Part shown: positions 91 to 64,000 of the stretch, piece after piece | Position numbering within the stretch: the stretch's first letter is position 1 | Layout of the letters: every line of letters starts with the position of its first letter | Assembly (NCBI RefSeq): GCF_019649055.1 | Contig: NW_026570223.1 | Location: 1,364,001 to 1,428,000 of the forward strand | Source: Paramacrobiotus metropolitanus | Taxonomy: Eukaryota; Tardigrada; Eutardigrada; Parachela; Macrobiotidae | Reading direction: 5' to 3' | DNA: 64,000 bases | Notes under the pieces: generated by a model | Seen by the model: the letters and a program-made list of their open reading frames with translations, nothing else | The model's database searches: none | What the model was told of the DNA's origin: nothing | Program-made: the position numbers and the translations under genes

Positions 91-1529
91 TGACTGCACA
101 TATATAGAAGTCAGTTGGTTCCAGTTATTGTTTAAAACTTACTCTCTTGTTTGACTGCGGCCGGTCATAATGCCTTCGAGGAACGCCTCACCGGATTAGG
201 TTTGTCGCATGCTCTCTTTGTTATTTCGTTGTTAAAGGTTGATGTTTTTGTAAGCAATTTGTTTATCATCAGTGCTGTATTTTTTGTTATGACGTTTTGT
301 TAGTTCCGGTCTTTGAACAGCACTGATTTCGAGATACCTTTCCAGACTTACCTACGAGTAGTGTCTAGAAAATCTTGTCATATGTATGCAAAGATCGTAA
401 GCTTTGTTACATGTTTTCTTTGCAATTTCTTTACAATTGTTAAAAGTCTAAACGACTCCGCATGCGGTAGTGATATTTGGGATGATCGTATGAGAGTAAA
501 TCGTACTATTGTTAACCTTCTGTAATTACATAATTTTGCCGCTGTTTCATCAATGAATGGCATTTGGATCTACGGTTTGCTGCGCTGCGGTTGATAAAAT
601 ACATTAACAGTCCTATTCCCAGTTATTAGATCTAGGAAATGATCTTATTACGAGTATCTATTGCACGTACAATACGTAATAATTTTCTGTTTTTTAGCAT
701 GCACTCGTTTAGGCAATGTGTCCAGTGCGGTATTGTTTTATACTAACAATTAACAAATAACTTGTTAAATTTATACAGTAGCTAGCGCTTGGCTAATTAT
801 CAAAACACAGTTACTTAATAAATACGCCTCCGCGCTATTCTTGCACTGTTTTCAGCATTAATTTTTGACTTTGAGTTTTTGAGTTTACAGTATCTATAGT
901 CATTAAATTTTGTCTCGTCGTGGAGACTTTTACTTAATTACTTACTGTACATTGCACATTTCAGACTTGTGGTTATTATCAAATGCACAATCTTGACATA
1001 ATAACGATAATCGATAATTTAAAACGTATTTAATCGTTACCTCATTACTTTTCCCATTCACAGTACAAAATTAACGGAATTTTAATTAAACAGACACATT
1101 AGAAAAAAGTGAAAAACACAGTCATACTGCTACTTATCGTTACTATGTGTTAGTCCGTCTCGCGGTGAAAGCTGTTACCGGACATTTGGCCGTGCACCAC
1201 TGTCGCTCGCGCCGATTACGCTAATTGTGAACGGTTAATCTGCCGAAATCAGTCTGGTGAAAAATGAGAAATTCCATCATCTGGAACTGTTTATTTACGG
1301 TCCAGCTGCGTTATGAGAAAACATTCTCCGCGTCGCGTCTACTTACGCTATTCTCCTCTGGCCTGATTTCTCAGTGGGGGAAAGTTTAAAAGATTAATTA
1401 GACCACATTGGCAAGTGGCGTCTGTTTACGGTGATTAATCTGGCGCTGGCACGTCGGGGTGTCTTGCACTGCATTTGCATCGGAGTCTGGCCACGCACGA
1501 TCAGCTTATTCAGACACCAGCGAGCCACC
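91..1529. other. Intergenic, nothing recognised
   Basis: AT-rich sequence with only short open frames of no recognisable similarity (for example 70 codons at 313-525). It probably holds the 3' end of the preceding gene and the promoter and 5' UTR of the TatD gene. No repeat or RNA gene was recognised. Confidence 0.4.
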
Positions 1530-3871: not shown

Positions 3872-5026
3872 AAATTGGGTGGAGCTGGGATTTTTTTTAT
3901 AATGGTTCGATGAATTTCGTTTTATGTTTGAATCGACTTCGATCTTTAAAATTAACAATAATTATTAAATTTGGAAACATTCTAAAACATGAGCCACAAA
4001 ATGGGTAATAAATAAATTGTGCCTTTACATTTGGCTTTGTACGAGGAAAGAATAGACCGAAATTTTAATACCTCTTTTTTCGACCCGAATGGCTTGTAAA
4101 AGAAGAGGAACATCTACAAGTATTTCCTTTTTGACTGTTTCACGTTCCATTTACTTTCAATACGCTGCATCTTTCTATCGGAAAGGCAGATTAGTTTAAA
4201 ATCCCATGATAGCTATCATCCTAGCCGGATATGGGCTACCTGCACTGACTCAAATTAAATTAAAATTGAATTAAAAATAGCTGGGATTACGCGGGTTTCG
4301 ACGATATAGTTTCCACTTTGAAAATAGATGATTCCCCACGACTTTTTCTTAGGTTTTAGTGAACAACCGCAGAAAAAAATTCTTGTGGGCAAAATCAAAA
4401 GGCAAAGAATGGGGACTGTCGGAAACTTACCATATAAAAACTGCATTACGCTGCCAAACTCGGCGGTTGCAGTTGCTGTGAGCGCCGGAAGTTCTTCAAT
4501 TCCCTTTCAATTTTTCAGCGTGAACGTTTTCGTGAAATGTAAATGAAATCGGATAGATTAAAGATAATGCTGTACAGGTTAACCTAGAAAGCCTCATGTG
4601 CGTTACGAGCCTAGAAGTATTCTAAATCTTGATACTTGCCTCAAAAGGAGGGAATATAGGGCTTGAAAATACATACAGTACTGACGTGTATCAATCAGAA
4701 TGATAAAACCATTGAATTGTTTCAGGGAGTTTGTCATTCGTTTTTATGACAGCTTTATACACACACAAAACCCAGCTTCAGTTTTCTTCTCACGTAACAA
4801 ATTAAAGTCAGCTTACGTTACAATAACCGGAAAGCTGCGAAGACAACTATTTCCGTTCAAACAGATGTACAATATTTAGAAAACATAAGACATATAAAAA
4901 CAAATACATTTGCTCTGAAATTCTGCAGACGAGTAGTAAAATATGGACTTTCTCCACCAGTCCGTATTCACAGGTAAGAAACACACCGTTGCCATCAAAG
5001 TAAAAAACCGTTGTGCAGCTTAATCC
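3872..5026. other. Intergenic region between convergent genes
   Basis: This lies between the TatD stop and the stop of the minus-strand transporter, so it should contain two 3' UTRs. AATAAA-type signals follow the TatD stop (about 4006-4016). No other gene or repeat was recognised. Confidence 0.4.
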
Positions 5027-26212: not shown

Positions 26213-28346
26213 ATGTGTCTATGTTCTAGTCGTGTTTGCGTTGTGATCTCGGTAAGGTTGTCTCATGGTGATTTCTGTTTATCTTTGTAAACAAGTATTA
26301 GTTCAGTCACTGCAGTGTGCTTGTGTCATAATGTTTTTTGTCAGATACAGTAGTTTAGAAAGCGCAGAATGTTGATGGATTAAAAGATATCTTTGTTTCA
26401 ATTAGTCAGTGATTTCAGTGTGAAAATGCATCGCTGCTGCTGTTTTCTTTGTTCCGAAAATGCCTGTTTACGATTCTAATATTTTTCATTTGTCAGTACA
26501 ATAGTAGCCTTTCTGTTTAACAGGATCGTTTTTCGTGATGTAGGAAATAACACACTAAACACAGTGTTAAAAATAATTATTATTGATAGAGTTTGTCGCG
26601 AATTGGATATTTACGCTTAAAAGTCGGAATACGTACTAGTACATCGGTATACCTGTACGACGTATGCTTATTTAGATTTTAGACTATCTACTCAGTACTA
26701 AGTACTCTACTCTAGACTTGAGTAGTGTAGCATGGGCCAATGTCAAAACGACGGCGGAATTTTCTGCCGGCGGAAATTTTTTGTGGTCAAAACGACGGCG
26801 GAATTTTCTGCCGGCGGAAATTTTGTGTGGTCAAAACGCCGGCGGAAATTCTCGTGGTTAAACTGCCGGCGGAATTTCCTGAACATGCATTTTTTTTACG
26901 GAAATCACAAATTGATACAAAACCAACTTATTAGTAAACTAATTCACGCAGTAAAATACACGCTGGACATTCTACAGTATGTATTATGTATCTATGCATT
27001 CTTGTCAAACAAACTTCTGCTAATGCTAGTTTCAAAACATGCTTCATCGTTCTGCAGATAAACAGTCAACAATGACAAACGAACACTACAACTTTAAAAA
27101 AGTTGAAAAATTAAAAAAAGCACAAGAAAACAAAAACACAATGATAAAAGAACATACGTACGTGCTCGAATACCAATCAGTTAATCCGCCGGCAGTTTGA
27201 CCACGAGATCTCTGCGCGTAGAGATTCTTCGTCTGAGTTGGCTCTGCCAGTCTGTGTTCAGAGAACTTGTGAGTCTTCCCAGGAACGGCTCCAAAGGGAT
27301 CAGACTAGATCGCACCTCAGTGTCATTGCCGCAGTGCCATTGTCAAACACCTTGTTTGTCTCTTTTGCGCGGCTCAGGTATTCACTTGAACTTGTTCGCG
27401 CGTTCTGTGCAACTGCCGACGCCACAACGCCCATACATACTGTACATACATGCGGCCCGATAAAGAGATTTATATTGATAAGGGGGCGCCCAGTTCTACG
27501 TATGTAAGATACATTTTTCCTGCAAAATCGTTTTTAAAAACGCATAGAAAATGAAATTAAAAGTTACAAAAATTCCGCCGGCAGTTTGACCACGAGAATT
27601 TCCGCCGGCGTTTTGACCACACAAAATTTCCGCCGGCAGAAAATTCCGCCGTCGTTTTGACCACAAAAAATTTCCGCCGGCAGAAAATTCCGCCGTCGTT
27701 TTGACATTGTATTTACAGTACATGCACACCTTTATTTACAAAATTAACGACAAGCATGCTTTATTGTACCATAGTCACCTCAGTTTATAATAAGTAAAAA
27801 AAATATGTAAAAGTTATAATTATAGATATAGATATGCATACATTATGATACATAAGTACGAAAATTTAATTATGCCTGCTCTATACATAGGATTATGGTA
27901 GTTCACCGTAGTTGTACTTTCGTATTCCATACTTGTCTGCGAGTAAAACTTATCGCCATTGACCCAGTATTAGCGGTTGAATTCGGGGTATCCATGAAAA
28001 TGATAACGAAATATCGTTTGAGGGAAACCTTAAAATTTTACAATGCATTGTTTAGAAATTTCAAGTACACCACGTGCGTCTATTGTAATTTGTTCCACTT
28101 AACAGCGATAAGAAAAATCAAAAGGTAAAAACGGGTCCAAAATACTTGCGCACTCTACTTAATTCCGCAAGATATCATGCGGATTGCTGATAATTCCTAC
28201 CATGAATAAAAATCTTATAAAGGCCAGACCGCGGCGTCTTAACTCGCTAATCAATCCCCCGTTAATTGCGGACCGTGGAAGAAAAATTATAGTTACACCT
28301 GTTTTCCACTGTCGTCGCATCGGAGGAGAATTCGGTGGGGGTTACA
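26213..28346. other. Intergenic region, mostly transposon-derived
   Basis: Apart from the inverted-repeat element at 26738-27709 this stretch is AT-rich, with only short unrecognised open frames (for example 27895-28128). It should include the promoter of the GH3-domain gene. Confidence 0.4.
26738..27709. mobile_element. Inverted-repeat DNA element with internally repeated termini
   Basis: Each end carries about 140 bp of inverted repeat starting CAATGTCAAAACGACGGCGG. Each arm is itself built of about 44-bp subrepeats (TCAAAACGACGGCGGAATTT...), two full and two shortened. An additional partial copy of the innermost subrepeat (CCGCCGGCAGTTTGACCACGAG) sits at 27188-27209. The interior contains no intact transposase. 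No target duplication is obvious (left flank GGGC, right flank TATT). The structure is that of a foldback-type non-autonomous DNA transposon. Confidence 0.75.
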
Positions 28347-50645: not shown

Positions 50646-52235
50646 TCAAGACTTAACGACTGCACTACGTCTTTTCCCTTGAACAACATATTTTAATGTG
50701 AGACGGGCAAAGTCCACCGACATCTCTCGTAAGTGCGGATAACGTTGGACAACGTACTGCTCACCGTTGGCTCGGCGGTACGTAGCGTCATAGAACTCTC
50801 CCTCAATTTCCACCTGCAGCTTTCGGCCCGGCTTCAAGACAACGGCCGCTCGCACGATCCGTTCACTGTCGCCACTCTCTTCAGCCGCTGGTTGAGTCAG
50901 ACAGCGCCACAAGATTTCCCCCTGCCGGATGCCGATGATCATCGCCGGCGTCCAGATAACCGGACGCGAACTGGACTTAATAAAGACTTTTTCCTCATGC
51001 TGGAACTTGATGTCCCCGATACGGTGGACGGGTCCGAAATCGGGATGGATGGGGCCGGTGCGCGGCTCCGTGGGGAACGGCAGCTGTGGTTTTACCTCGG
51101 ACTGGGTGTGCTTGTACTTGTACAGCTCGTACCCCTCAGACGCAAGCAGGAGGCCACTCTGCAAGCAAATACACAGCTTCAACAGTGAACACAAGCTAAC
51201 CGCCGTATACTTAGAGGATCTCCGTATTAGAAACGTTGTCGCCACTTTGAGATTTAATGTGCAAACACTCAGCTATTTTAGGTTGTGACTGGAGCAATTC
51301 GACAAGATTCAACGCTTAATTCGAGAGTGATCGTACGAGTAACATTCGCGTAACATTAGCTGATGCACATTATTATGACTACTACCGGGTTTGCTGTATA
51401 TTTTGGCTAACGCACTGACCTTTAAGGGCCCATCAACCAGCTGCGTATCGGTCAGCAGGGGAAACCGCACGAGGAACAGCGCATCTCCTAGCATCGCACG
51501 CCGATTGGCGGCGGACGGATCCAAGTTGTTCGATTCGCATGCGTTTCGCGCCCATCTAGAGGAAAAAACAAGAATTCTAGGTGATCGCACAATCATGGCC
51601 GGACCAGCACCGTCCGCCGTATGTACCTCTCAACTGCCAGATAGATGTTATGTTCCTCGGCCGACAGTGTATTACGCAATAGAATCATCTCGAGCATCTC
51701 CTTTCCAACGGCCGCAAAATCTCCCAACGCGATGACATCGTCCGCGGATCGGTCGATGAACTGCAGACAACTCTCTGCAATCTTTTCAGCACGACGTTCA
51801 ACGCCCTACAACCGATATACAACCGTATAAATATTAGGCTAGAATGATCGTACAGATATAACAGGGATAGGACTAATTTAAGCAATTACAGAAGTTTGAC
51901 CAACATTTTTCAGGAAAATCAGACAGTTCTCCGTATTCAGCTGGGTGCTAACGAATTCACAGCACTTGTCCACTAGCAGCGGCACTTCGTACTTGTCCGC
52001 GCACAGCAGTGTCTGGATGACGACGTCCACACGCAGATCGACCGTGTCAGTGTACAGGAAACTGCAGTCGAGTAAATACAGTCAGGATGTACTTCTGCGT
52101 AATCATAATATGTTGATAACCAACGTTACGATAATCTCTAACCTGAGCATATTGGCAAACGCATCGGGAAGAACATCCGGAATGTCGATCACCTGGCGTT
52201 TCTCAGGCAGACTGCCATAGAACATGGTATATCCT
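50646..52235 (-). CDS. BTB-BACK domain protein (BTBD1/2/3/6-like with PHR-type C-terminus), 5' truncated
   Basis: Minus-strand exons: 52235-52143, 52061-51890, 51805-51627, 51555-51420 and 51158-50646. Phases agree throughout. The order matches BTBD proteins, which are usually Cul3 substrate adaptors: the second half of a BTB domain (MFYGSLPEKRQVIDIPDV..FLYTDTVDL, ADKYEVPLLVDKCCEFV), a BACK domain (IAESCLQFIDRSADDV..., ERWARNACESNNL, NRRAMLGDALFLVRFPLLTD), then a C-terminal region with IKFQHEEKVFIKSSSRPVIWTPAMIIG in the place of the PHR domain. The N-terminal half of the BTB domain is missing. Upstream of 52235 lie a tRNA-like insertion, a duplicated exon and an LTR retrotransposon. Either the 5' exons lie beyond the retroelement or the gene is a truncated copy. 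The 51890 donor (GTAATT) is the least certain boundary. Confidence 0.68.
51561..51851. repeat. 291-bp direct repeat, copy 1 (contains BACK exon)
   Basis: Identical by eye to 52661-52951, at an offset of exactly 1,100 bp. It covers BACK-domain exon 51627-51805 with parts of both flanking introns. Confidence 0.9.
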
Positions 52236-52246
52236 CTGTTATATGG

Positions 52247-52648
52247 TAGCAGATCAAGCAGCGTTGGCTCGGACGGTACCAGACTGCCTACTGCAGAAGT
52301 CAGTATGGCCCCGCCTCCCCACCGCGTGGAGTGCGGATCCTCCGAATCCTGGGATGTTTCGCTCCGAGGACGTAGCGAAGCCTGCAACAGGGGTGTAAGA
52401 GGAGAATCCTCTTTACACACAGCAGCCGCCCATCCGCCGCCTACCTGGTTGGCTCAAGCTCAAGCACAAATATCTTGATCTTCGCCAACAGCGGTGATGG
52501 CACAGTGGCTGTGCTACGTGGATCTCACTCGGTAGCCAGCGGTTCGATTCCGCTCCATCGCCATTTTTCGGAATTTCCTCAACAGACAGGATCTTCATCT
52601 GACCGCCCTCCCTCGCTGAGATCATCACGGACAGCCGACTTATGGCTG
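52247..52648 (+). mobile_element. tRNA-like (SINE-type) insertion flanked by a 14-bp direct repeat
   Basis: The 14-mer CCTCTGTTATATGG occurs at 52233-52246 and 52649-52662 and brackets about 402 bp, as expected for a target-site duplication. The insertion contains a tRNA-like unit with Pol III A and B boxes (52491-52562). Removing it rejoins a convincing intron end (a T-rich tract, then CCATATAACAG) ahead of the BTB exon, which supports the reading as an insertion. Sequence upstream of the tRNA-like unit is unrecognised, so the element may be composite. Confidence 0.55.
52491..52562 (+). repeat. tRNA-derived sequence with intact A and B boxes
   Basis: The A box TGGCACAGTGG and B box GGTTCGATTCC are both consensus. 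The acceptor arms (GCGGTGA / CCATCGC) pair at six of seven positions, the D stem (GCAC/GTGC) and T stem (AGCGG/CCGCT) are perfect. The anticodon stem is broken and position 33 is not T, so it is unlikely to be a working tRNA. It is better viewed as a SINE head or tRNA pseudogene. Confidence 0.6.
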
Positions 52649-52660
52649 CCTCTGTTATAT

Positions 52661-52951
52661 GGAAAAAACAAGAATTCTAGGTGATCGCACAATCATGGCC
52701 GGACCAGCACCGTCCGCCGTATGTACCTCTCAACTGCCAGATAGATGTTATGTTCCTCGGCCGACAGTGTATTACGCAATAGAATCATCTCGAGCATCTC
52801 CTTTCCAACGGCCGCAAAATCTCCCAACGCGATGACATCGTCCGCGGATCGGTCGATGAACTGCAGACAACTCTCTGCAATCTTTTCAGCACGACGTTCA
52901 ACGCCCTACAACCGATATACAACCGTATAAATATTAGGCTAGAATGATCGT
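52661..52951. repeat. 291-bp direct repeat, copy 2, abutting the LTR
   Basis: Perfect copy of 51561-51851. It includes a duplicate BACK exon (52905-52727 on the minus strand), now positioned upstream of the BTB exon instead of downstream. Its right edge coincides with the first base of the LTR. Confidence 0.9.
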
Positions 52952-53280
52952 GAGCGCAGGCGTACATGCGTACACCCTCGCTTTGGCAGTCTGTTGTGTA
53001 TTCATTGCGCGCCCGCCTTACGCGTGGCGAAAGCATGGTGTTCTGCGCGCACCCGCACTGTGTGGCGGCTACGTGCACATTTTCACGCTTGCTGCAGTCA
53101 GCAATGCGGAGTTGTCCACGAGGAAATTCTATCGAATTTAGTCTGGTTATAAATTTCTAGCAATCACGCCGTTTCTCGCTTTCTGTAGCGTAGGCGTATT
53201 TATAGCATTGCTAGTCTTTTGGTAGGCAGAATTCCGTCAATTCTGTTCCTACGCGTGAACCTTCATCAGGTCCACGCTCA
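52951..53280 (+). repeat. 5' long terminal repeat
   Basis: Begins TGAGCG and ends CGCTCA, a perfect 6-bp terminal inverted repeat of the TG...CA type, and is followed after two bases by a primer-binding site. TATAAA (about 53147) and TATTTATA (about 53198) are candidate core promoters. The 3' LTR, needed to prove the boundaries, lies outside the window. Confidence 0.75.
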
Positions 53281-53282
53281 TA

Positions 53283-53290
53283 TGGTAGCA
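53283..53290 (+). promoter_or_regulatory. Primer-binding site for initiator tRNA-Met
   Basis: TGGTAGCA is complementary to the last eight bases (TGCTACCA) of animal initiator tRNA-Met and is followed by AGAG. It lies two bases after the LTR's CA end, the normal position for priming minus-strand cDNA. Confidence 0.65.
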
Positions 53291-54709
53291 AGAGTCGTGT
53301 TTCTCCAGGATAATCTGTGAGTTTTTTCCGTCCATCCGACGAGGTGTGGAAGAAGTCTCGCGAGAAAGGGCTCGCGTACGGTCCAGTGGCGAAGGAGCGT
53401 TTGGATCTCGACAGCAGATCAGCACCAGTGTGTCTCTACTGAGTAGAGCACGCTGTACTGACCTGACGCGATCAAGGCTACTGAAGTAGCTCTGATCGGA
53501 GGGGCACAAGCGCCGAAAAAGATCGCCGCAAGAGGCAGAAGCCCGAAGGGGGGCACGAGTGGGCAAGCCACTTTTGGCTGTCGGGTGTGGAGTTTTCAGG
53601 TGCGTCTCTACTGAGTAGAGCGCACACACATTATACGCGCTCCCCCAAAAAGGAGGTCGAGCGCCCCTGTCGTTGCTAACGTCAAGGCACGACAGAAGAC
53701 CCGCAGCCAGCAAGTCTTTTGGTCGACGCACCGCTGCGTCCTGTCGCATCGAGACAGAAGGGGTTAGCGACTGGCCCAGGAGAAGTCAGTATAATCGTTG
53801 GAGGAACTGGAGGATTCGCGGAAGGACGCGCAGGATCGATTTCTGGATCACGGAGACGATCAGGTCAGATTTTCGTTTATTAATTTCGCCATTGGCGTAA
53901 GGGTAAAATTTGCAATTCTGATTGGTCGGTGATGAGCTGAGCAGAAAAGTAGGCGGCACTTTTGCACACGGCGCGCTAGCGAAAATTTTCGGATTTTGAC
54001 GTGACGTCACTCTGCCTTATAATTTGAAAAACAACTCACCTGATTGGTCGTTTATAAACGCTGTGATTGGCGCAGACGTAAAGCTAAAGTTAGCTTAGAA
54101 GTAAGCCAATTAGAAGCTGAGATTTCGTAAGGAGGCGGAGTTTTTGCGCACGGCACTCAAGATTGTGACGTAGCTAACCAAGAAAATTTTCTGAACCAAC
54201 TGACGAGAAGTTGACCTTTACCAAAAATTTTGACGAGATTGATGACCTTTAGCAAAAGCTAAAAGCTGAAGAAATAACGTTCATTCTGAGGAAATCTAAG
54301 TTGATTTCTTAATAAAATCGAAAAATATTCTCAGGTTAGACATTTCTGACCGAAGTTGATAGTGACCTTTAAAAACGAAAAATTCGGGAGAAAAAGTGAC
54401 CTTTAACAAAGTCGGAGTAAGCGTTAAGCTGAAACAGTTGATGACCTTATTGAGTTGAGTTTTGCTGAAGGAAGAGACCTTTACGAGAACTTAGTTAAAT
54501 TTCTGAAGAGAAAAGTGACCTTTAGAAAGGACTTAGATCTTTTAAAGGCAGAGTGACCTTTAGCAACTGAGCTCGTACGATACGAAGTGACCTTTAGGCC
54601 AGTGCTTGTTACTGTTCACGTGTAAAAGTCGCGTAACGTAATCTAACACACGTGTCAGAAACATTATTAGCATCGTCCAAGTTATCCGATCATCAATAAA
54701 CCCAAAGAC
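53291..54709 (+). other. Retroelement leader with hairpins and AAAGGTCA/TGACCTTT words
   Basis: Non-coding leader between primer-binding site and gag. Two nearly identical hairpins with core CTCTAC-TGA-GTAGAG lie at 53431-53452 and 53600-53625. TGACCTT occurs about eight times between 54211 and 54600. Open frames on the minus strand (for example 53249-53749) have no similarity I recognise. Confidence 0.6.
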
Positions 54710-55840
54710 ATGGATCAAGATACAGACGGTAATGAACCGGTCTCAGCGGGTAGTCAGAGAGAACGGTCAGAAAACCCTTACGAGCGGAAATTAAAGCCGT
54801 TCACACGTCCAGTGGAACATGAAAGAGCAACTCGAGCTCAGAAGACCTTTGGGAGGAAGGACACCAAAGGTTCAGAAGCCACATACCAAAAGGCTCTGAA
54901 GGAAACCTTGAACAAAGAGAGCTCGAGTGATGGAAGTCAAAACTCTGGACGGCACGCCGATGACGGCACGGTAGACCAGTCAAAGGTCACCGAAGAGAGA
55001 ACGGCTACGGATGGACAGAATAAAGATGACTTGAAGGCCGAGACCGGAGGAATGGCACGGTCGGCCGAAAAGGTCAAGGAGGAAAACGCGGACCAAGCTG
55101 AGAAGGGAAATACCGAAGTCAGCCAAAAGGTCACCGAAGGTGGTGGCGCCGTCAGCAGCGACATGCTGATTGACGAAGGAAAGGTCAAACAGGATGACCT
55201 TTCGGAAAACTCACTGTTCTTACAAGAACAGCTGGAAGAGAACGGTACCAGCCCCACGTCAAGTGACAAGTTTTACACTGACGATGAAGACGAAACGACG
55301 GTACAGACGTCTTTCCATACGGCAATGAAGGAGGCAAACTTAACGAAAGGAATGTTTGATACGACCCTCCAGGACAAGCCAGAAGAGACCTTTGAAGGAA
55401 TGGCGTCAGGAAGAGCCGACGACCGGGACCAAAGGTCACCATCACCAAAAACATCCGTAATGAATGGATTAAAGCAGCGTGTCAAGGAACTCGAGCAGTT
55501 ACTTGACGAGAAGGAGAGCCAAGCATTCGCTGCCATTCGAGAACAACGGAATAAAACTATCGAAGTCGAAGCAAGGCTGTATGTGATGGAGCAAGAAAAG
55601 GTCACGCTCGAAGACGAAGCGCAACAATGGAAAGTCAGATTTGAAGTTCAGAAACAAGCAGCGGAAGATCTAAGGAAAATGGTCGAAGATCGAGACGCGG
55701 AAGGCATACTCATCGCAGAAGAAGACGGTCTGTCCGAGGAAGCAGCTGAAAGGTCACAGGAAATAGCAGAATTGAAAATGAGCGTGACCTTTTACAGTCA
55801 AAGGTCAAGGAGGCCGAGAAAAAACGTGACGAATCTCTAG
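54710..55840 (+). CDS. Retroelement gag, N-terminal ORF (disordered plus coiled coil)
   Basis: A 376-aa ORF from ATG 54710. The first 230 residues are charged, Glu/Lys/Asp-rich and probably disordered. From SVMNGLKQRVKELEQLL onward (about residue 245) a heptad-rich coiled coil begins and runs into the next ORF. The last 20 residues in this frame (MSVTFYSQRSRRPRKN) do not look like coiled coil. The -1 frame at the same place does (NERDLLQSKVKEAEKKRDE) and continues into 55876-58812. A slippery heptamer A AAA AAC lies at 55819-55825, five codons before the TAG. Either programmed -1 frameshifting or a single-base loss (perhaps in the GAAAATG run near 55778) joins the two. Confidence 0.75.
   Translation: MDQDTDGNEPVSAGSQRERSENPYERKLKPFTRPVEHERATRAQKTFGRKDTKGSEATYQKALKETLNKESSSDGSQNSGRHADDGTVDQSKVTEERTATDGQNKDDLKAETGGMARSAEKVKEENADQAEKGNTEVSQKVTEGGGAVSSDMLIDEGKVKQDDLSENSLFLQEQLEENGTSPTSSDKFYTDDEDETTVQTSFHTAMKEANLTKGMFDTTLQDKPEETFEGMASGRADDRDQRSPSPKTSVMNGLKQRVKELEQLLDEKESQAFAAIREQRNKTIEVEARLYVMEQEKVTLEDEAQQWKVRFEVQKQAAEDLRKMVEDRDAEGILIAEEDGLSEEAAERSQEIAELKMSVTFYSQRSRRPRKNVTNL
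55819..55825 (+). promoter_or_regulatory. Possible -1 frameshift site A AAA AAC
   Basis: The heptamer is in the correct register (AGA AAA AAC) in the upstream gag ORF. A -1 slip enters exactly the frame of the downstream gag ORF, and the zero-frame stop TAG follows five codons on. No strong downstream stem was found at the usual 5-9 nt spacing, and a simple indel further upstream is a competing explanation. Confidence 0.35.
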
Positions 55841-58812
55841 CAAATGCGACGAAGTTCACCGGAAAGGTCACCAGCTTGACGGCTGACATCTCGAAACTGA
55901 AGGATGACCTTAAATTACGCGAAGACCTTGTCAACACGTTACAAACAGAATTAAAAGAGATGAAAAGGAAACACAACGAAGCGGAAAGCCAGAGAGATCA
56001 AGCAGCAAAGGAACTGCTTGAACTGGCTGAAAAAACAAAAACTGAATTCAAGCGACTCAATGACGAAATCGACAACCGAAAGAAAGAAGCAAAGAAGTGG
56101 TTGAAGGAAGCACAACGGTGTGACGAACGGGTCACTGTGCTAGAAGTCGTGAATAAAGAAGGAAAGACAGAAAATGAAAAACAAAAAGAAGAGATCGCCA
56201 AATTGAGCGACGAATCAGTCGGATTGGCTACTTCCGTAATGGAAAAGGATGATAAAATTACGGAACTAAAAGCCCAACTGAAAGCAGTTGAGGAAGAATG
56301 CCAAGCGAGAGGAAGGACCCTCGCAGACAGAGCGGATCGTATTACACGATTGGAAGCAGAAGCTGAGATCCTAAAAGCAGCGAAAATGGATCTCGATAAG
56401 ACCCTTGATAACAGGGCCAGTACAATCCTCGAGCAAATGAGAAAGGTCACCGAAGCAAACAACGATTACGAGAAACTGCGGAAGGACGCAAATGAAACCG
56501 TGAGACAGCTACAAGAAACAATCAAACAAAAAGACGAAGAAATCAAGACTCTCAAACGCTCGGCAAAACAGAAGGAAACTGAGATCCAACAGCCGGAACG
56601 AATCGAATCTCCGCCCCCTGGATATGGCGAAGTCCACACCGTCGAAGGTAGCTTCCATTTCCAAGCTCCCTTAAAGACGGGGACTGGCCGAAGCGACGGC
56701 CGTGATGAAGATAAGGTCAAAGCTGAAAAGGTCACCGACGATACTGAGTTGGCGAAGGGGCACTCAGGACCGATCGGTGGGGTCAATCCCCGGCAACAAG
56801 AAACAGGACCGAGGGAAACAATCGTCTACAAATCTGACCATCAGCCAGACAATCATGAAGATCCACGAGTTCGCCAAAACGAGCAGGAAAGGGTAGCTCG
56901 TGAAGAGGAGAGGCGAGAAAGAGAATACCGCGCGGAATACCACGCTGAAGCACAGCGACTCCGTCGCGAAGAAAGGGAATTCAGAGGGATCATGAGAGCC
57001 ATGTCCCGGAAATCCGCACTGATTGACTTCAATGGCAACCGAGAAGCCTTACTCGGTTGGATCCGTCAGGTCAAGGAGACTCAGAAGACGTATGACCTTT
57101 CGGATGCAGCAATGATGCTGGAAGTCGCCAACGCAGTCAAAGGGGACGCGAAGGCATGGTTTGACGCGGAAAGAGAAATCGATGACGAAGAAGAGGCGGA
57201 AGAGTTAACCGTCGATGAATGGATGACAAAGTTCAAAGAACATTTTGGCGATCGTGACGAAGGGGTCAACGCCTTACGAGAAGCGATGACGAGAAAGTTC
57301 GAGGCTGGCAAAGAAACGCTTGACCAGTTCTATCAGGCGATCATGCGCTTCAAATCGAAACGGATCATTACAGAGAAGCAGGCCATCGGATTCCTAATTC
57401 AAGGATGTAAGAATGACAGTGACCTTTATAAGGCACTCCGAGCACAGAAATTCCATAACCCAATGGATATCAAGGAATTCTTCCGCACCTGGTCGACTGG
57501 CGAAGAAAAGTATAAGGTCACGAGAGGCAATCGAGTCCAAGATGATTGCGTGATCATCCGATCGGGCCAGATCGAAGAAGTCGCGAATGGGCGAAAGAAC
57601 CAGTCGTGCTCGGCGCAGGCGTCAGGATACAATACGGAATTTCCGCCGTTAGGCACTCAAGAAGTGACCTTTGGCAACGGTCGAAATGAAGGTCAAGTAT
57701 CGTACGCGACGATCGCGGCGATACAAACAGCTGTTCAGGAAGTAGCCAAGCCTGCGATTGCGGCGATCCAAGCATCAGCTCAGCAAGCGGCAAGACCGAA
57801 ACAGAATCCACAAGGAAACGCGCAAAGGAATGCCCTGAATGGAGGGCTCGGTGGTCAAGGAATGGCTCAGGCGAATCCGGGCTTTGCTGGCCAGGGATTC
57901 AACGGCGGCGGGGGAAACCAAGGAAACTTCCGACCGAACCGTGGACAAGGAAATCAAGGACCACGATACGGGTCGCGAGTAGAGCGCCTGTTCACCATGA
58001 TCGACGGATGGGTGGCCAATAACGCGCTGACATGCCAGAATTGCATGTACGGCAACCACTATACGCAAGCGTGCTCGTTCGCGGGAACACCGTGGAATCA
58101 GAACCCCAACCGGGTCGTGTATGAAGAATGGTTGATGCTGCGTAATAATCATGGCGGATGGCGCAACGCAATGGCAAATGGTTATGTGCCACAATCACGC
58201 CAAGGCGGACGGTATGCTGGTCAAGGTGGCCAAGGGAACTTCGCCGGTCAAGGTGGCCAGGCCAACTACAACAATCAAGGAGGCCAGGGCAATTTTGGTG
58301 GCCAAGGGAATTTCGCTGGTCAAGGTGGCCAGTGGAACAACGCTGGTCAAGGTGGCCAGTGGAACAACGGAGGTCAAGGTGGCCAGGATAACTTCGGAGG
58401 CCAAGGCAACTTCGCCGGTCAAGGTGGCCAAGGCGGAGGAAACGGCGGATATGGCCCGGTTAGAGGCGGCTTCCGAGGTAGAGGCAGAGGCCGCGGCGGA
58501 AATCGCGGAAATTACGGCGGCGGCCAATGGAATGGTGGTGGTCAAGGTGGCCAATGGAACGGTGCTGGTCAAGGAGGCCAGTGGAATAACGGTGGTCAAG
58601 GTGGCCAGAATTTTGCCGGTCAAGGTGGCCAGGGCAATTTCGCCGGTCAAGGTGGCCAGGGCGATTTCGGCGGGCAGCAAGGCGGCTTCGTCGGTGGAAA
58701 CGGTTTCGGTCAGCAAGGCGGAGGCTTTAATTTCGCCCCGGCGAATGGTGCCGGTCAGGCGCAAGGTGCGCCGGTTCAGGGAATGGCCCAGGGAAACGCT
58801 CAAGGTCAGTAG
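55826..58812 (+). CDS. Retroelement Gag: coiled coil, retrotransposon gag core, CCHC zinc knuckle, Gly-rich tail
   Basis: The frame is open well upstream of the first candidate start and continues the coiled coil of the preceding ORF, so I take entry by frameshift. Domains in order: about 350 residues of Glu/Lys-rich coiled coil; a conserved capsid-like gag core from GNREALLGWIRQVKETQ (about 57040) through DAKAWFDAER, WMTKFKEHFGDR and TLDQFYQAIMRFKSKR to IQGCKNDSDLYKAL (about 57440); a zinc knuckle C-QN-C-MYGN-H-YTQA-C (58033-58074) of the C-x2-C-x4-H-x4-C type; then about 200 residues of repeated GGQGGQW/NFAGQ and an RGRGRGRGG patch. Gag forms the particle that packages element RNA. The RG/GQ tail is an unusually long RNA-binding, phase-separation-like region. 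It ends at TAG 58810-58812, inside the frameshift hairpin. Confidence 0.85.
58195..58690 (+). repeat. Coding minisatellite encoding GQGGQ repeats
   Basis: Roughly 14-bp words GGTCAAGGTGGCCA recur with variation and encode the GQGGQ tail of Gag. The repeats lack stop codons in several frames on both strands, which creates long spurious overlapping ORFs here. Confidence 0.8.
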
Positions 58813-61800
58813 GCGCCGGTGAGCCTACTGATCGTCCGGAACCGAAACCACCGGATATAGAGGAGCAAGGTGCTCCGCTGCAGGCAAGGACCGCAGCGAG
58901 AAAGGGATGCTGCGAAAGTAACGCAAAGACCCGGAAAAGAAATCCGAGGATTCGGGAAAGTAACTCGAAATCGAGCGAAGGGGCTCGTAAAGGCCAAGAG
59001 AAGGGTTTAAAAAGATTGCCGCAAGGACGGAAGAATTTGACCGAAAGGTCACCGCAGAAAGTAACTGCGGGAAGTCAAGAAAGTAACTTGACTCATCCGG
59101 GGCTGACCCAAAGGTCACCGCAGAAAGTAACTGCGGGGAACAGGGTTGACGGAAGGGCCTCAACTCTGCATCCGGGACAGCAGAAAGTAACTGCAAATCA
59201 AGATTGTCACGAAAGTAACGTGACGCTGCAAGGACAGCAGACCCAAAGGTCACCGCAGAAAGTAACTGCAAAGAAAGGTCACGGAAGTAACGTGACGCTG
59301 CAAAGACAGCAGACCGAAAGGTCACCACAACAAACGGAGAGTTTAACGACGAGGAGAAAGAAACTCTTCGCGAATGCAGTAGCAAAGCTGAAAGGCGGAT
59401 CATCAGCAGAAGAAGATGATGAAGTTCACCACTCGAAGTTCCGAGAGCATATGGAGAAAGTAACCCGAGAAAACGCTGCCGAAGGTCACGGAAAGGCCGT
59501 GACTGCGCAAGGAGCGCAAGAGACCGAAAGGTCACCTCAAGCGAGAGTTGAAGAAGTGAAAGGTCACGAGAGATTGCCAGTGCAGCAGACTCAAGAGTCA
59601 CTGAAAGAGAAAGGTCACGGTGAAGTCGCCGATGAACCGAAAGGTCAAGAAAGTAACTTGACTCTGCGAATGGCGCAGCAAACAGTGAAACAGAGCGAAG
59701 GGGCACAGCAAATCTCAGATGACTCTCTCGATGAGGCAAACACTCTACAACAGAAGATGGAGTGGCAAAAAGTCGCTTACAGGCCGAATGGACGGCACGG
59801 TATGTGGAAACCAGTTCTTCCGCCACAAAGGTCACCGCAAGACGTGAGAATTCCCAGAGAAGCTTACTGGGAAGAAAGAGAGAAACAAGATTGGCGGATG
59901 AGAAAGCATCTCGAGGAAATGGTAAAAGCTTCACAACCGAAAGTTCAAGAGTACTGGAAAGAGAAGAACCAATGTGACGAAAATAACCGTCAGTTTCGAG
60001 AGCGGATTGAGAAGGGTGAATTACCGCCTCAGTATGGTGAGAAAGTGCCTTTACAAAGGTCACTAAATGGTGGATTTTTCATGTCAAGACCGGAAAGGTC
60101 ACCGGACTTAGCGCAAACTCCGCAGAAGGAGAAGTCGTATGACATGACAGAAGCAATCCGGAATGACAACGAAAGGTCACCGCCAAGAACTGACGGATTA
60201 TCATCTCAAATCGATCCAACTCGCACGAATAACGAAATTGCGAAGAAAATTACCGATTGGATGAAAGAAAACGACCATAAGATGGTTGTGTACGAAAGGT
60301 CACCAGAGAAGAAGAGTGAAGATGACGAGATGACCTTTGCGGATGAAATCACGCAAGAGATAATGGCAAAGTTGCAGGAAAAGCCGTCTAAAGACGTGCG
60401 CAATGAAAAGTCACAATACGAAGTTATTGCGCAAGTGATAAAAGGTCACGAGAACGCACAAGAGAAGGGTTTGACGTGCGAAGTGGCAAAGGTCACGGGT
60501 AAAGAAAACGCTGCGAAGGAGCAAGCGAATATCTTACCGAAGTCAAAAAGGATCGAAAAGTTCTCAGATGTGCGACCCGACGTACCGAAACGGATAGATC
60601 GTTGGAGCTCAAAAGGTCTGATAGAGAGCAAGCATGCTGCACCAATCCCAGTCAAGTGTAGAATAAGAGTCTTGAAACTCGAAGATGGAAATTTACCGAA
60701 ACGGATCGAAGCTTATACACATGAAGTCAAAATTGGAAATAAAAAGGTCATGGCGATGCTTGACACTGGCGCAGAGACGTCTTTGATTTGTCAACAGTTC
60801 TGTGAAAGGAATGGCCTCCAGACTGTAAGACTACCACCGAAAAAGAAGGTGATGATCAAAGGGATCAGTGGAACGTCAGGCTTTGAAGTGACGCACTACT
60901 GCGTAGCACCAGTGACCTTAAGACGGAAAACGAGTCAACACTCGTTCTACGTCAGACCAGCGTCAGACGATGTCCAAGTCCTACTGGGATTCGACTTCCT
61001 CGCAAAGAAATTCATCCTGATAGACGGGGATGACGAGGAAGAACGAGAAACTGAGGCCGAAGATGACGAGCCGAAATCCTCTGCAAAAGTCAATGCAGGA
61101 AAGGTCACCGAACTTCAACAAAGAAATAATTCGGGGCAAACGGCTATCCCAGTACCAGAGGCACAGGGATCGAATGATAAGGAACAAAATCAGAATGGTG
61201 AAAATCTAATCCCAGTACCAGAGGCACAGGGATTAAAAAAGGCTGAAAGAAGCAAAAGGTCACTGAAGTCGAAAGGGACACAAAGGTCACCAACGATGAA
61301 ACAAATCAAGATAATGCAAGCAGAAGCACTGATTGCAAAGAAACAGTCGCTAGTGCCAGGAATGGAGTGGTCAAGGCTACTCCCAGTACCAGAGGCACTG
61401 GGCACGAGAATGGTTGGGCCCAGGACAGAGCCAGGACTGATGAACAGCGACGAAAGAGCACTATTCTCGGAAATACGAGATCAAGCCATAAAGCAACTGG
61501 ATGCAAGCCATAAAGCAACTGGATGCAAGGAAAACGGAGCATGGTGCAAGGAAAACGGAGCATGCAAGGAAAACGGAGCACCCTCTTGCTTTATCACGTG
61601 GTTCGAAAAACGGAGCACTTTCGAGCCACGTGATAAGGCAAGAGGGCGGATGAAAGGTCGAGACACGCGCCTGCGCAAAGAGGTAGCAGAGAGTAGTCGT
61701 CGTCTTACTTCCGAACCACGCTCTGCAGATGAAGAAATCGAAGTCATCGAAATATCATCAGATAACAGCGTAATCGAATTCATAAACGATGACGAATGGA

Positions 61801-62492
61801 CAGATACCGATTCCGGAGAAACGGATAAGCGAGTTATCGTCCGTCCTGAACCGAGACAACGGATGCCGGAAGGGAACAATCGCGTCATTTCCCGCAAACC
61901 AAGAGAATGGACTGCGGAAGAGAGAGCAACCTCTTGCCATCACGATTGGCACGACAGCGATGACCTTTCGATAGCGCGACCTCAAGAAAGATGTGCAAAA
62001 TGCATGCAAGAAATGACACAAGATGACCTTTCGGAATGGCCGAAATGCAATGCAGCAATTGCACGTCATAATAGACAAGAAGAAAAAGAGGTCAAATCGA
62101 TCATCAGAACACTTCCCATGCCGGAGCTGTCAAAAGCAACTTACCTTTGGCAATGTTATCGAGAATGGTTATCGGTAGTCAAGAACTACATCATCTCCAG
62201 AGGAAAGTGGCTCCATCATTGGCAGCAAGAAGCGGATAACTTCATTCCCGAAAAGGCGGATAAAAGCGACCCGTGGTATACAAACCCGATTACAAAGCTC
62301 GACAGAGAAAGGCGACGAGCAATGGAAGAGAACGAAATATGGGAGCAAGCGAGAGTTGACTTATTTTGGGAATTCAGAGTCAATTATCTATGGAAAGGTC
62401 AAGGACGAGCAATCATTTTCCCAATCGGACTCGGCACAGTAGTGTACGAATTATTTGACCTTTACCAGGCCTGCCTCAAAAGGGAAATTTAA
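58728..62492 (+). CDS. Retroelement protease ORF (-1 frame relative to gag)
   Basis: The frame is open from just after a stop at 58725-58727 and overlaps the end of gag. It is entered by -1 frameshifting at GGGAAAC (58791-58797), after which the protein continues KRSRSVGAGEPTDRPEPKPPD. There is no obvious ATG at the start. A long low-complexity region with ERSPQKVTAG, QESNLT and KGH motifs precedes a retropepsin-type aspartic protease: KVMAMLDTGAETSLICQQF (catalytic Asp, about 60750-60800) with VQVLLGFDFLAKKFILIDGD as the C-terminal part (about 60970-61030). After the protease come repeats of PVPEAQG, a 28-bp hairpin region, and a possible metal-binding segment CHHDWH...ERCAKCMQE (about 61933-62010). 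It ends at TAA 62490-62492. No reverse transcriptase motif is present in this ORF. Confidence 0.8.
58791..58839 (+). promoter_or_regulatory. gag-pro -1 ribosomal frameshift signal (slippery site plus stem-loop/pseudoknot)
   Basis: The heptamer G GGA AAC (58791-58797) is in gag register. After an 8-nt spacer, TCAGTAGGC (58806-58814) pairs perfectly with GCCTACTGA (58823-58831), a 9-bp stem that contains the gag stop codon. The loop's CCGG (58816-58819) can pair with CCGG at 58836-58839, forming an H-type pseudoknot. A -1 slip leads directly into the protease ORF. Confidence 0.85.
58862..59678 (+). repeat. Tandem hairpin array with near-invariant AAAGTAA loops
   Basis: At least ten short perfect or near-perfect hairpins share the heptaloop AAAGTAA (once GAAGTAA) but have different stems: TGCG/CGCA 58911-58925, TCGGG/CTCGA 58952-58968, CCGCAG/CTGCGG 59052-59070 and 59118-59136, GTCAAG/CTTGAC 59074-59092 and 59644-59662, GCAG/CTGC 59180-59194 and 59255-59269, GTCACG/CGTGAC 59206-59224 and 59278-59296. 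Further hairpins with other purine-rich loops are interspersed, for example GTCACGG-AAAGG-CCGTGAC 59485-59503, TGCGC-AAGGA-GCGCA 59504-59518, CTGCG-AATGG-CGCAG 59664-59678 and GGAGC-AAGGT-GCTCC 58862-58876. Confidence 0.85.
61149..61403 (+). repeat. Coding repeats encoding PVPEAQG / PVPEALG
   Basis: The word CCAGTACCAGAGGCAC occurs at about 61152, 61213 and 61387, each preceded by CCC or TCC and followed by (A/T)GGG. Each copy can fold, the third perfectly (CCCAGT...ACTGGG). A degenerate fourth copy occurs near 62998. Confidence 0.7.
61581..61646 (+). repeat. 28-bp hairpin within the protease ORF
   Basis: The arms 61581-61608 and 61619-61646 are complementary over 28 positions around a 10-nt loop (AACGGAGCAC). 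Every position pairs if two G.U wobbles are allowed. It follows a set of tandem GCAAGGAAAACGGAGCA repeats (about 61525-61580). Confidence 0.85.
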
Positions 62493-63058
62493 GAGAATGG
62501 AACAAACAATGGGGCAAAATCCTCGAAGAAGTACCGATATATACAGGAGAAATCCCTGAATTAAAGGTCACGCGAAAAAGACGCGAACTCGGATTATTTG
62601 GCTATCTGAGAAAAAAGGTGACCTTTGCACCAGATCCAGATGGAGTGGAGTATCCCGAAAGAGGCGGAGATACTTGGTGCATGTATGAGACGGTACCGAA
62701 CAATGACTGGACTACAGAAGAACTGATGGCAAATTGCGTCTTTATCGGCGATAAGAGACCGAAAGGTCACAGCACAAGCGCTGAAAAAGAAAGCGGCACA
62801 AGCGCCGAAGAAGAAAAGAACAAAGATAACGGCACAAGCGCCGAAGAAACCAAAGAAAGAGAACAAGAGGTCAGCACAAGTGCTGCTCAAGAAAACGGCA
62901 CAGGCGCCGAAGAAGAGGAACCAACGCACACGGCGTATGAGTTGGCTCAGATGATCAAGGAACTGAACCAGGCGTTTCGGGATAAGGAAAACGGAATCCC
63001 GGTAACAGAGGCAAAAAGGCTCAAATGTCGCCGCAAGAGAAGAAAGCAGCGTCGTTAG
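62459..63058 (+). CDS. Retroelement downstream frame A (unidentified, -1 relative to protease ORF)
   Basis: This frame opens 34 nt before the protease ORF stop and encodes GNLREWNKQWGKILEEVPIYTGEIPELKVTRKRRELGLFGYLRKKVTF and onward, then GTSAEE repeats, ending in a basic CRRKRRKQRR tail at TAG 63056-63058. No canonical slippery heptamer was found at the junction, so it may instead reflect an indel in this copy. Function unknown; a linker region of pol is possible. Confidence 0.5.
   Translation, partial: PLPGLPQKGNLREWNKQWGKILEEVPIYTGEIPELKVTRKRRELGLFGYLRKKVTFAPDPDGVEYPERGGDTWCMYETVPNNDWTTEELMANCVFIGDKRPKGHSTSAEKESGTSAEEEKNKDNGTSAEETKEREQEVSTSAAQENGTGAEEEEPTHTAYELAQMIKELNQAFRDKENGIPVTEAKRLKCRRKRRKQRR
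62779..62915 (+). repeat. GTSAEE-encoding coding repeats
   Basis: Five spaced units of (A/C)(A/G)GCACA(A/G)GCGC(C/T)G-type sequence encode (S/G)TSAE or GTGAE. Each unit is self-complementary (for example AGCAC-AA-GTGCT near 62876), so they add to the hairpin-rich character of the element. Confidence 0.6.
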
Positions 63059-63252
63059 TGGCTTCACTACAAAGGTCACTCGGTAACGGTGAGGAAGGGC
63101 CACCAACCGAGAAGAACGAAAGGTCACTAAACGCGATGCTGGAAGAGGAGCCAGAAAGGTCAGTTCCGAAAGTTGACGAAGGGTCACCTGAAACTGGCGA
63201 GGAAGGGCCGCCAGTTGGAAAAGCAAAAGGTCACAGAATACCGCTCAAGTAG
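63025..63252 (+). CDS. Retroelement downstream frame B (unidentified)
   Basis: A 75-codon frame from ATG 63025 overlapping the previous frame by 34 nt, again shifted by -1. It has GNGEEGPP and TGEEGPP repeats with AAAGGTCAC-encoded ERS motifs. It is too short and repetitive to assign; probably part of the same polyprotein interrupted by frameshifts. Confidence 0.35.
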   Translation: MSPQEKKAASLVASLQRSLGNGEEGPPTEKNERSLNAMLEEEPERSVPKVDEGSPETGEEGPPVGKAKGHRIPLK

Positions 63253-63256
63253 ATGA

Positions 63257-64000
63257 TAGCTCGGAAGACGATGAAAGGGATAGGTCACGAGCAAGGATTC
63301 GTGCAACACGAACAAATCCGAGGATAGCAGCACGAAACGGACGAAAGTCCAAGGAAACGGACAAACCTCTGCCCGAAAAGCGAAAAGCGAAAAACTTAGC
63401 GCTTCCAAGGATGAAGGCGATGACCTTTCAACAGAAAGTGAAGACGAGGGCGTCGATGAACGACCAATCGGAAAAAGGAGTGAAGGTCAAGCGCTTGAGG
63501 TTAATAATAGCAGCGAATCCGACTCGGAATTCTCGAGCACAAGTGACAACTCGACCACTTCTGAAGATTCTGGAGTGAGTGACCTTTCGGATCAAGAAGA
63601 TCTGCTTGACCTCGACGAAGACGATGAAAAGAACGAACAACAAGAGAAAGAGATCATTGTTCGAAGAATTAAAGTGCAGAAAGCAAGAATCCCAGAAGGA
63701 GCGATCAAGGTTTACAGCGATCAACGAGTTAAGCTGAGACCAAACCTTGGCACTCGCGTGAAGGTCAAGATGGGCGTTCATGTGCCACGGAATCAGAAGC
63801 TGATGTATACAGCAACTCCTCAAAAGGATAATGAAGTCCAACCGAGAACGGGAGTCACGGACCATAACGGCACTCGATTCGAAATCATTATCGAAAACCG
63901 AAGCAAAAGCCGAAAGACCGTAAGGAAGGGCCAATTTCTCGGTTACGTAGAACATTACGAACACCTCGAGAATGTAAAGGTCAACTCGGCTACTGTCGTG
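63257..64000 (+). CDS. Retroelement downstream frame C, start of pol linker (partial, runs off the window)
   Basis: After one or more frame changes near 63257-63400, a frame open to the window end encodes an acidic Ser/Asp-rich stretch (SESDSEFSSTSDNSTTSEDSG), then KVQKARIPEGAIKVYSDQRVK, RVKVKMGVHVPRNQKLMYTA and RKGQFLGYVEHYEHL. The last part resembles the beta-strand-rich linker between protease and reverse transcriptase of Gypsy-type polyproteins. The exact start is uncertain. Confidence 0.45.

Follow-up and report, generated by a model that had tools for sequence, protein, structure and literature searches.

A purine-rich loop repeated on differing stems in the gag-pro linker of a tardigrade Ty3/gypsy element, a candidate cis-acting array of small RNA hairpins

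In a 64,000-nucleotide stretch of the genome of the tardigrade Paramacrobiotus metropolitanus (RefSeq assembly GCF_019649055.1, contig NW_026570223.1, positions 1,364,001 to 1,428,000 of the forward strand; hereafter the window), a long terminal repeat (LTR) retrotransposon of the Ty3/gypsy type by its sequence carries an array of small hairpins in the linker between gag and pro. The arms of these hairpins match each other beyond chance, the stems of orthologous hairpins are compensated between copies of the element, one loop recurs among the hairpins of a subfamily, and a stem that is kept can bear a different loop. Taken singly, protein coding and tandem duplication each fail to account for the array. 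We tentatively favour reading it as a set of small RNA hairpins that act in cis and whose multivalent purine-rich loops would most likely be bound by Gag for packaging.

In order to describe the array in the window copy, the sites of the pattern [AG]AAGTAAC were scanned and their stems checked with G.U pairs allowed. Eleven sites are found at 58915-59657, on the + strand only. The whole 64 kb window has 10 occurrences of AAAGTAAC, all within the same span and again on the + strand only (0 on the - strand). From the first site to the last the stems measure 4, 6, 6, 7, 6, 4, 7, 4, 6, 1 and 7 bp. The earlier sequence-only reading of this DNA had counted at least ten hairpins with the same 7-nt loop just downstream of the gag-pro frameshift site. 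Indeed, ten of the 11 sites sit on stems of 4-7 bp, but nine of them have the exact AAAGTAA loop and one has GAAGTAA, while the site at 59457 shows the loop word without a stem (1 bp). Every stem listed in that reading was recovered, including the one with a G.U pair (TTCGGG/CTCGAA, 58951-58969), and so was the position of the array past the frameshift site, which consists of GGGAAAC at 58791-58797 and an 11-bp hairpin. The statement that the loop is translated in at least two ways is also borne out, the pro frame reading KVT at 5 sites and ESN/GSN at 6. About five different stems surround the one loop word; since module number varies between copies, the ten hairpins amount to only these ~5 stems. 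The hairpins of the region, all on the + strand, are as follows (array hairpins by stem scan, the others by hairpin scan).

58911..58925, + strand: array hairpin TGCG[AAAGTAA]CGCA
58951..58969, + strand: array hairpin TTCGGG[AAAGTAA]CTCGAA, with one G.U pair
58972..58987, + strand: further hairpin CGAGC[GAAGGG]GCTCG
59052..59070, + strand: array hairpin CCGCAG[AAAGTAA]CTGCGG
59073..59093, + strand: array hairpin AGTCAAG[AAAGTAA]CTTGACT
59118..59136, + strand: array hairpin CCGCAG[AAAGTAA]CTGCGG
59141..59168, + strand: further hairpin CAGGGTTGA[CGGAAGGGCC]TCAACTCTG
59180..59194, + strand: array hairpin GCAG[AAAGTAA]CTGC
59206..59224, + strand: array hairpin GTCACG[AAAGTAA]CGTGAC
59255..59269, + strand: array hairpin GCAG[AAAGTAA]CTGC, 5 bp in many other copies
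59278..59296, + strand: array hairpin GTCACG[GAAGTAA]CGTGAC
59485..59503, + strand: further hairpin GTCACGG[AAAGG]CCGTGAC
59644..59662, + strand: array hairpin GTCAAG[AAAGTAA]CTTGAC, with an ortholog in all subfamilies examined
59664..59678, + strand: hairpin CTGCG[AATGG]CGCAG, with an ortholog in all subfamilies examined

Copies of the element were then compared within the same genome. A search with the array gave at least 83 matches and a search with the protease at least 150 matches among 693 candidates. The GAAAGTAAC array is present in 35 of the 40 loci first retrieved, with 4-13 sense-strand copies in each, and absent from 5/40. A further 60 loci were retrieved around protease matches and one other match set; in a later batch of 40 of these, 3 have no frameshift anchor. 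The 35 loci with the array form subfamily 1, in which the anchor-to-anchor distance ranges from 786 to 1303 bases (30/35 copies; the other 5, without anchor, were left out of the alignment), and the aligned copies differ by the duplication or loss of modules. Furthermore, homologous arrays with other repeated loops, namely AATGGTA, AATCGGA, TATAAGGAT and TAATAAGAT, are found in other subfamilies. The hairpins are CGCAG[AATGGTA]CTGCG and ACGGC[TATAAGGAT]GCCGT in subfamily 2, and CAG[AATCGGA]CTG and GATGGC[TAATAAGAT]GCCATC in subfamilies 3 and 4. Some loop words are in part common, AATGGTA being used in subfamilies 2 and 3 and AATCGGA in 3 and 4. In several of these comparisons the subfamily label was assigned by one marker string, so a few rows are misplaced, such as L072.

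The most telling point is the exchange of loops on kept orthologous stems. Three orthologous hairpins have the loops AATGGTA, ACGGTAG and AAACAGA in most subfamily 2 copies, and all three have AAAGTAA in most subfamily 1 copies (GAAGTAA for the middle one in the window copy), on stems that are the same or compensated. The piece that holds this trio aligns between the subfamilies with a score of 59, compared to at most 34 in 500 shuffles. Loops that differ on kept stems speak against tandem duplication alone, since duplication would bring the stem along. Within subfamily 2 the third hairpin of the trio is either CTGCG[AACAG]CGCAG or CTGCA[AAAAG]TGCAG, which are the two commonest strings (8 and 7 of 29 copies). 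By hand translation, the paired bases of these variants cost R>Q and A>V and the loop T>K.

Compensatory changes are also seen at the first two hairpins past the frameshift site and at the double hairpin at 59644-59678. For the first two, identical rows among 62 copies were collapsed to 24 and 25 distinct sequences respectively. The first hairpin occurs as CACTGCAG/CTGCAGTG, as GAACGCAG/CTGCG.. and as GAACACAG/CTGTGTTC, and 15 cells with two-sided changes were counted versus 6.0 when shuffled. The second occurs as GATGGC/GCCATC or AACGGC/GCCGTC, at the cost of a Met/Thr replacement by hand translation, with 11 such cells versus 4.6. In both cases 0/500 shuffles reach the observed count. The double hairpin is present in 94/97 loci, the other 3 having no gapless match, and its covariation was scored on 36 of 37 distinct strings (L032 was omitted). 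At the fifth pair, 17 of these 36 have A-U and 16 have G-C, a difference made by two synonymous changes, and the peptide GQ..xLTLR is kept.

The pairing of the arms was tested separately, without any predicted structure: sites were picked by their loop alone in 60 loci and the 3' arms were permuted 2000 times. For AAAGTAA, 78 distinct arm pairs match at 4.49 of 6 pairs versus 3.00 when permuted (maximum 3.51). The corresponding values are 3.68 versus 2.78 (maximum 3.48) for 31 pairs with AATGGTA, 3.97 versus 3.03 (maximum 3.69) for 32 pairs with AATC[AG]GA, and 3.17 versus 2.42 (maximum 2.80) for 109 pairs with 9-nt loops. Hence the real arms exceed all 2000 permutations in 4/4 specific loop classes. 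Similarly, the minimum free energy of local folds over 58863-59678 is -237.4, compared to a mean of -176.5 (standard deviation 9.2, best -202.0) in 200 synonymous-codon shuffles, giving z = -6.6. Seven other segments of the element have z values from -0.9 to -4.3 for the sense strand and from -0.2 to -5.1 for the antisense strand, so that the element is structured elsewhere too, though less than in the array. Against the same type of shuffle, a fold excess is seen in 9/9 arrays from three groups (z from -2.8 to -7.5), taken from 58 open arrays, and 7 of the 13 open following segments gave z values from -0.2 to -4.3, the strongest coming from a copy with a longer array. The 888 bases of the array contain 10 perfect hairpins whose stem has 6 bp or more (11.3 per kb); 20 shuffles gave a mean of 0.8 and a maximum of 2. 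The density of such hairpins is 2.1-4.2 per kb in seven other pieces of the element, the last of which (L052) takes in flank, and 2.1-3.9 per kb in the five 10-kb bins of the first 50 kb of the window. A search of Rfam with 53200-64000 gave no family above the gathering threshold and 3 sub-threshold microRNA-like matches, none of them within the array.

Changes shared between copies were examined by column in 26 of the 30 aligned copies (L024, L032, L038 and L040 were left out), excluding 59330-59490, where the rows are misaligned. Stem columns with shared changes are depleted, 9/114 versus 93/466 elsewhere (p = 0.0016), while singletons in stem columns are not fewer (p = 0.31); singletons are mostly changes after insertion. 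When only columns with the majority base in the window copy are considered, p is 0.0053 for stems, 0.39 for loops and 0.00029 for AAAGGTCA, a second repeated word that is treated below. Taken with the arm permutations and the covariation at orthologous hairpins, the stem columns uphold the proposal of the sequence-only reading that folding rather than protein is under selection. That reading also depended on other copies carrying the hairpins, which 35/40 loci do. Its constant loop is valid within a subfamily but not between related subfamilies, which use other loops. Tandem duplication of modules is also real, their number varying from copy to copy. Recent tandem duplication as the sole origin does not fit the units, which are not alike in their stems, ~5 of them surrounding one loop.

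The element that hosts the array has the domain order of the Ty3/gypsy group, with gag-asp_proteas/RVP, RVT_1, RT_RNaseH, Integrase_H2C2 and rve, and it is on this sequence evidence a Ty3/gypsy element. It resembles members of the group (Metaviridae) such as yeast Ty3 in its gag-pro-RT-RNaseH-integrase order, zinc knuckle and frameshift. Its parts in the window copy, in which the gag and pol frames are broken, are given below with the evidence for each.

54212..54595, + strand: 5' leader array of TGACCTT, 8 copies, 7 of them as TGACCTTT (word count)
54671..55840, + strand: N-terminal part of gag, one open frame; the frame shifts near 55750-55840 here (open frame)
55750..58812, + strand: gag, including the zinc knuckle and a Gly-rich tail; its stop codon TAG is at 58810-58812 (open frame)
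58033..58074, + strand: single CCHC zinc knuckle of Gag, CQNCMYGNHYTQAC (pattern)
58731..62492, + strand: open frame of pro(-pol), in -1 relative to gag, with the domain of the aspartic protease at ~60723-61004 (open frame, domain match)
58791..58797, + strand: slippery heptamer GGGAAAC, -1 frameshift signal, G GGA AAC (sequence)
58804..58833, + strand: 11-bp frameshift hairpin with an 8-nt loop, containing the gag stop codon (sequence)

The predicted -1 frameshift signal is complete, with an X XXY YYZ heptamer, a 6-nt spacer and a stable hairpin, and the first AAAGTAA hairpin starts ~80 bases past the frameshift hairpin. The CCHC pattern was found in 18/20 relatives scanned (L053-L072), the stretches of L059 and L067 having no match. 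The only protein relatives found for the element are two Paramacrobiotus metropolitanus proteins, of which P0001 has the peptide motifs of subfamily 2 and plainly belongs to it. Long terminal repeats are present, as stretches on the 5' side match C3:1438516-1439434 (L052 1516-2434) at 98.8-99.8%. The LTR pieces on the 5' side (window 51561-53283) are ordered differently from the 3' LTR (L052 1516-2434), and include a 291-bp repeat with a tRNA-Arg(tct) gene (52491-52562) between its copies. Past pol, the region of a third open reading frame (ORF; L050 1101-2999, L051 1-822) contains Q/M-rich repeats and a match to a linker-histone-like winged helix (PF00538, E 4e-5). The repeats of the Gly-rich part of Gag (58216-58673) also make repeated hairpins, such as CTGGTC[AAGGT]GGCCAG, and the segment 58153-58806 has z = -4.3 relative to synonymous-codon shuffles.

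We propose that selection would keep the hairpins as displays of many copies of one purine-rich loop, read by a protein that would be indifferent to the sequence of the stem. The likeliest reader would be the Gag that the element itself encodes, by way of the Gly-rich tail and the one zinc knuckle, because of the precedents among coat and Gag proteins and the divergence of loops among lineages in one host. Many weak sites would then collect Gag on the genomic RNA and favour its packaging. Because it is positioned past the gag stop, the array would be carried by the genomic RNA but would be missing from whatever spliced transcript the third ORF may have. Moreover, the linker between Gag and protease tolerates amino-acid change and is thus able to host RNA signals; here, selection on RNA structure appears to override the protein sequence of a coding linker. 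The hairpins would act as RNA.

The array consists of repeated hairpins with a common loop motif, as dispersed packaging signals do, and the packaging-signal hairpins of MS2 are likewise dispersed. Binding is shown in MS2 and satellite tobacco necrosis virus but is predicted here, and the present sites lie close together, within 0.8 kb of an LTR retrotransposon. The array resembles the packaging hairpins of satellite tobacco necrosis virus, a single-stranded RNA virus, in having many hairpins on the genomic RNA, a common loop motif and a free stem; the coat protein of this virus has a preference for the sequence of the loop, whereas that of the stem does not matter to it (PMC3593212). A purine-rich loop as proposed Gag ligand is also a feature of the packaging signal of mouse mammary tumour virus (MMTV), whose Gag requires looped purines (PMC8096270) and in which the loop is a single site in the dimerization stem-loop beside the primer binding site. 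Unlike MMTV, the tardigrade array has ten or more sites and lies in the gag-pro coding linker. In yeast Ty3, RNA packaging relied on untranslated regions or POL sequences (PMC4974528). A full-text literature search, with most subscription papers outside its coverage, gave no equivalent array described for LTR retrotransposons, Ty3/gypsy included. How LTR retrotransposons select their own RNA is poorly defined.

Several observations weigh against Gag-bound RNA hairpins. Yeast Ty3 can do without nt 429-4979 in retrotransposition if the proteins are supplied in trans (PMC4974528), which speaks against internal signals in that relative. The antisense strand of the array folds equally well (z = -6.57), hence the strand and the molecule of action are not fixed by folding. 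Shared changes are not significantly fewer in loop columns (10/70, p = 0.33), the direction being as in stems, so that loop constancy rests on the comparison between hairpins and not between copies. Stems with one mismatch show A.C 43 times and G.U 21 times of 100, which is opposite to the expectation for a sense RNA. However, singleton G>A changes number 54 over 260 G columns versus 20 C>T over 189 C columns in the 26/30 array copies, and as G>A is about twice as frequent, the A.C versus G.U count does not discriminate. This strand-asymmetric excess could reflect deamination of minus-strand cDNA. As for covariation, it rests on few phylogenetic events: at the first, second and double hairpins the counts of pairs with two-sided changes and of further pair types are not above shuffles, a register slid by +1 equals the true score in the double hairpin, and one slid by +3 nears it in the second.

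The same structural data would suit a platform that resembles a constitutive transport element, its loops being read by a host RNA-binding protein that exports the RNA from the nucleus, targets it to germ granules or controls its translation, and a repeated purine-rich loop is what such a protein could use. A single host protein would not predict loops that differ among subfamilies in one host, and we consider this explanation unlikely. A mutational origin, in which hairpin-templated strand switching by reverse transcriptase perfects quasi-palindromes and tandem duplication multiplies them without any need for function, appears unlikely to a closely similar degree. In its favour, the 5' arm GAACACAG stands opposite CTGCGAAA in L061 and opposite CTGTGTTC in five other copies, the 3' arm copying the 5' arm past the old stem in one block, which looks like a template switch during reverse transcription. 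Module number also differs between copies, and perfect hairpins are mildly in excess at 0-50 kb as well (1.0-1.7 times shuffled). Part of the perfection of the stems may therefore be mutational, but a template switch does not explain constant loops on differing stems, nor one loop word in subfamily 1 on three orthologous stems that bear different loops elsewhere, nor the deficit of shared changes in stems.

A structure of single-stranded DNA, with minus-strand cDNA or a cruciform being bound or pausing synthesis, would agree with an antisense fold as strong as the sense one and with the excess of A.C over G.T on the sense strand. Yet the bias of G>A over C>T can account for that excess and perfect stems fold alike on both strands whatever the cause; we regard it as improbable. 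Even less probable is a role in tuning the -1 frameshift or in slowing ribosomes past it: the array lies within ~80 bases of the frameshift hairpin and GGGAAAC is kept in 85/93 copies, but one downstream structure suffices and is present, and constant loops are not expected. Finally, the repeats QKVTA / QNGTA / QNRTA and MANKMPS could be selected as peptides, with the hairpins as a by-product of codon choice. The 7-nt loops of other subfamilies are nearly always in one phase (AATGGTAC 124/139, AATCGGAC 58/59, gaps uncorrected) and the peptide GQ..xLTLR is kept. In contrast, subfamily 1 reads its loop word in two main phases, KVT and ESN, for which reason protein coding fails as an explanation there; the fold excess persists against synonymous-codon shuffling, and the compensatory changes alter amino acids by hand translation. 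Peptide selection, largely refuted for subfamily 1, is thus the most doubtful of all.

A second repeated word accompanies the hairpins. Between 53 and 64 kb there are 46 copies of AAGGTCA and 22 of its complement TGACCTT (span 54212-63977), compared to 6 and 8 in the first 52 kb. All 8 leader copies (54212-54588) are oriented as TGACCTT. The coding region has repeats of the complementary AAGGTCA, and the pro frame reads AAAGGTCA in all three phases, 12, 6 and 3 times. Within the array its columns show a shared change in 1/63 versus 93/466 elsewhere (p = 6e-5) with equal singletons, a deficit stronger than that of the hairpins. The TGACCTT leader array is the same in three subfamily 2 leaders, whereas two subfamily 3 and three subfamily 4 leaders (L113-L117) have 0-3 TGACCTT and the other repeated words AACGATCT, TGAGCTGA and AACGAACT; leader words too thus differ between subfamilies. 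AAAGGTCA matches the monomer site of NR4A (NBRE). Leader and coding words are complementary as RNA, and may serve as DNA sites or in pairing between leader and coding RNA. The Drosophila gypsy insulator consists of repeated protein sites in the 5' leader, which the TGACCTT leader array resembles; the likeness concerns AAAGGTCA and not the hairpins. A kissing interaction of the AAAGTAA loop with the 5' leader is unlikely, as its complement TTACTTT occurs 0 times in the element half of the window and 3 times in the 12 kb downstream.

The loop could also serve as a subfamily address, each lineage matching its loop word to its own Gag and so packaging its own RNA among co-resident relatives; the word would change at many hairpins while the stems stay, and AAAGGTCA with its leader complement would add a second layer of identity. 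We consider this rather unlikely. In any case, the matched stems and exchanged loops of at least 100 copies in one genome offer a ready panel on which to test how RNA loops are specifically recognised and how this recognition has diverged among lineages that share the genome.

Two further observations were made in the window. The pol frame contains an 18-bp hairpin with a 10-nt loop at 61591-61636, for which Rfam gave sub-threshold microRNA matches only. Two tandem arrays lie ~0.7 kb apart, at 26742-26878 and 27566-27705, and the 44-bp units of one are nearly the reverse complement of those of the other.

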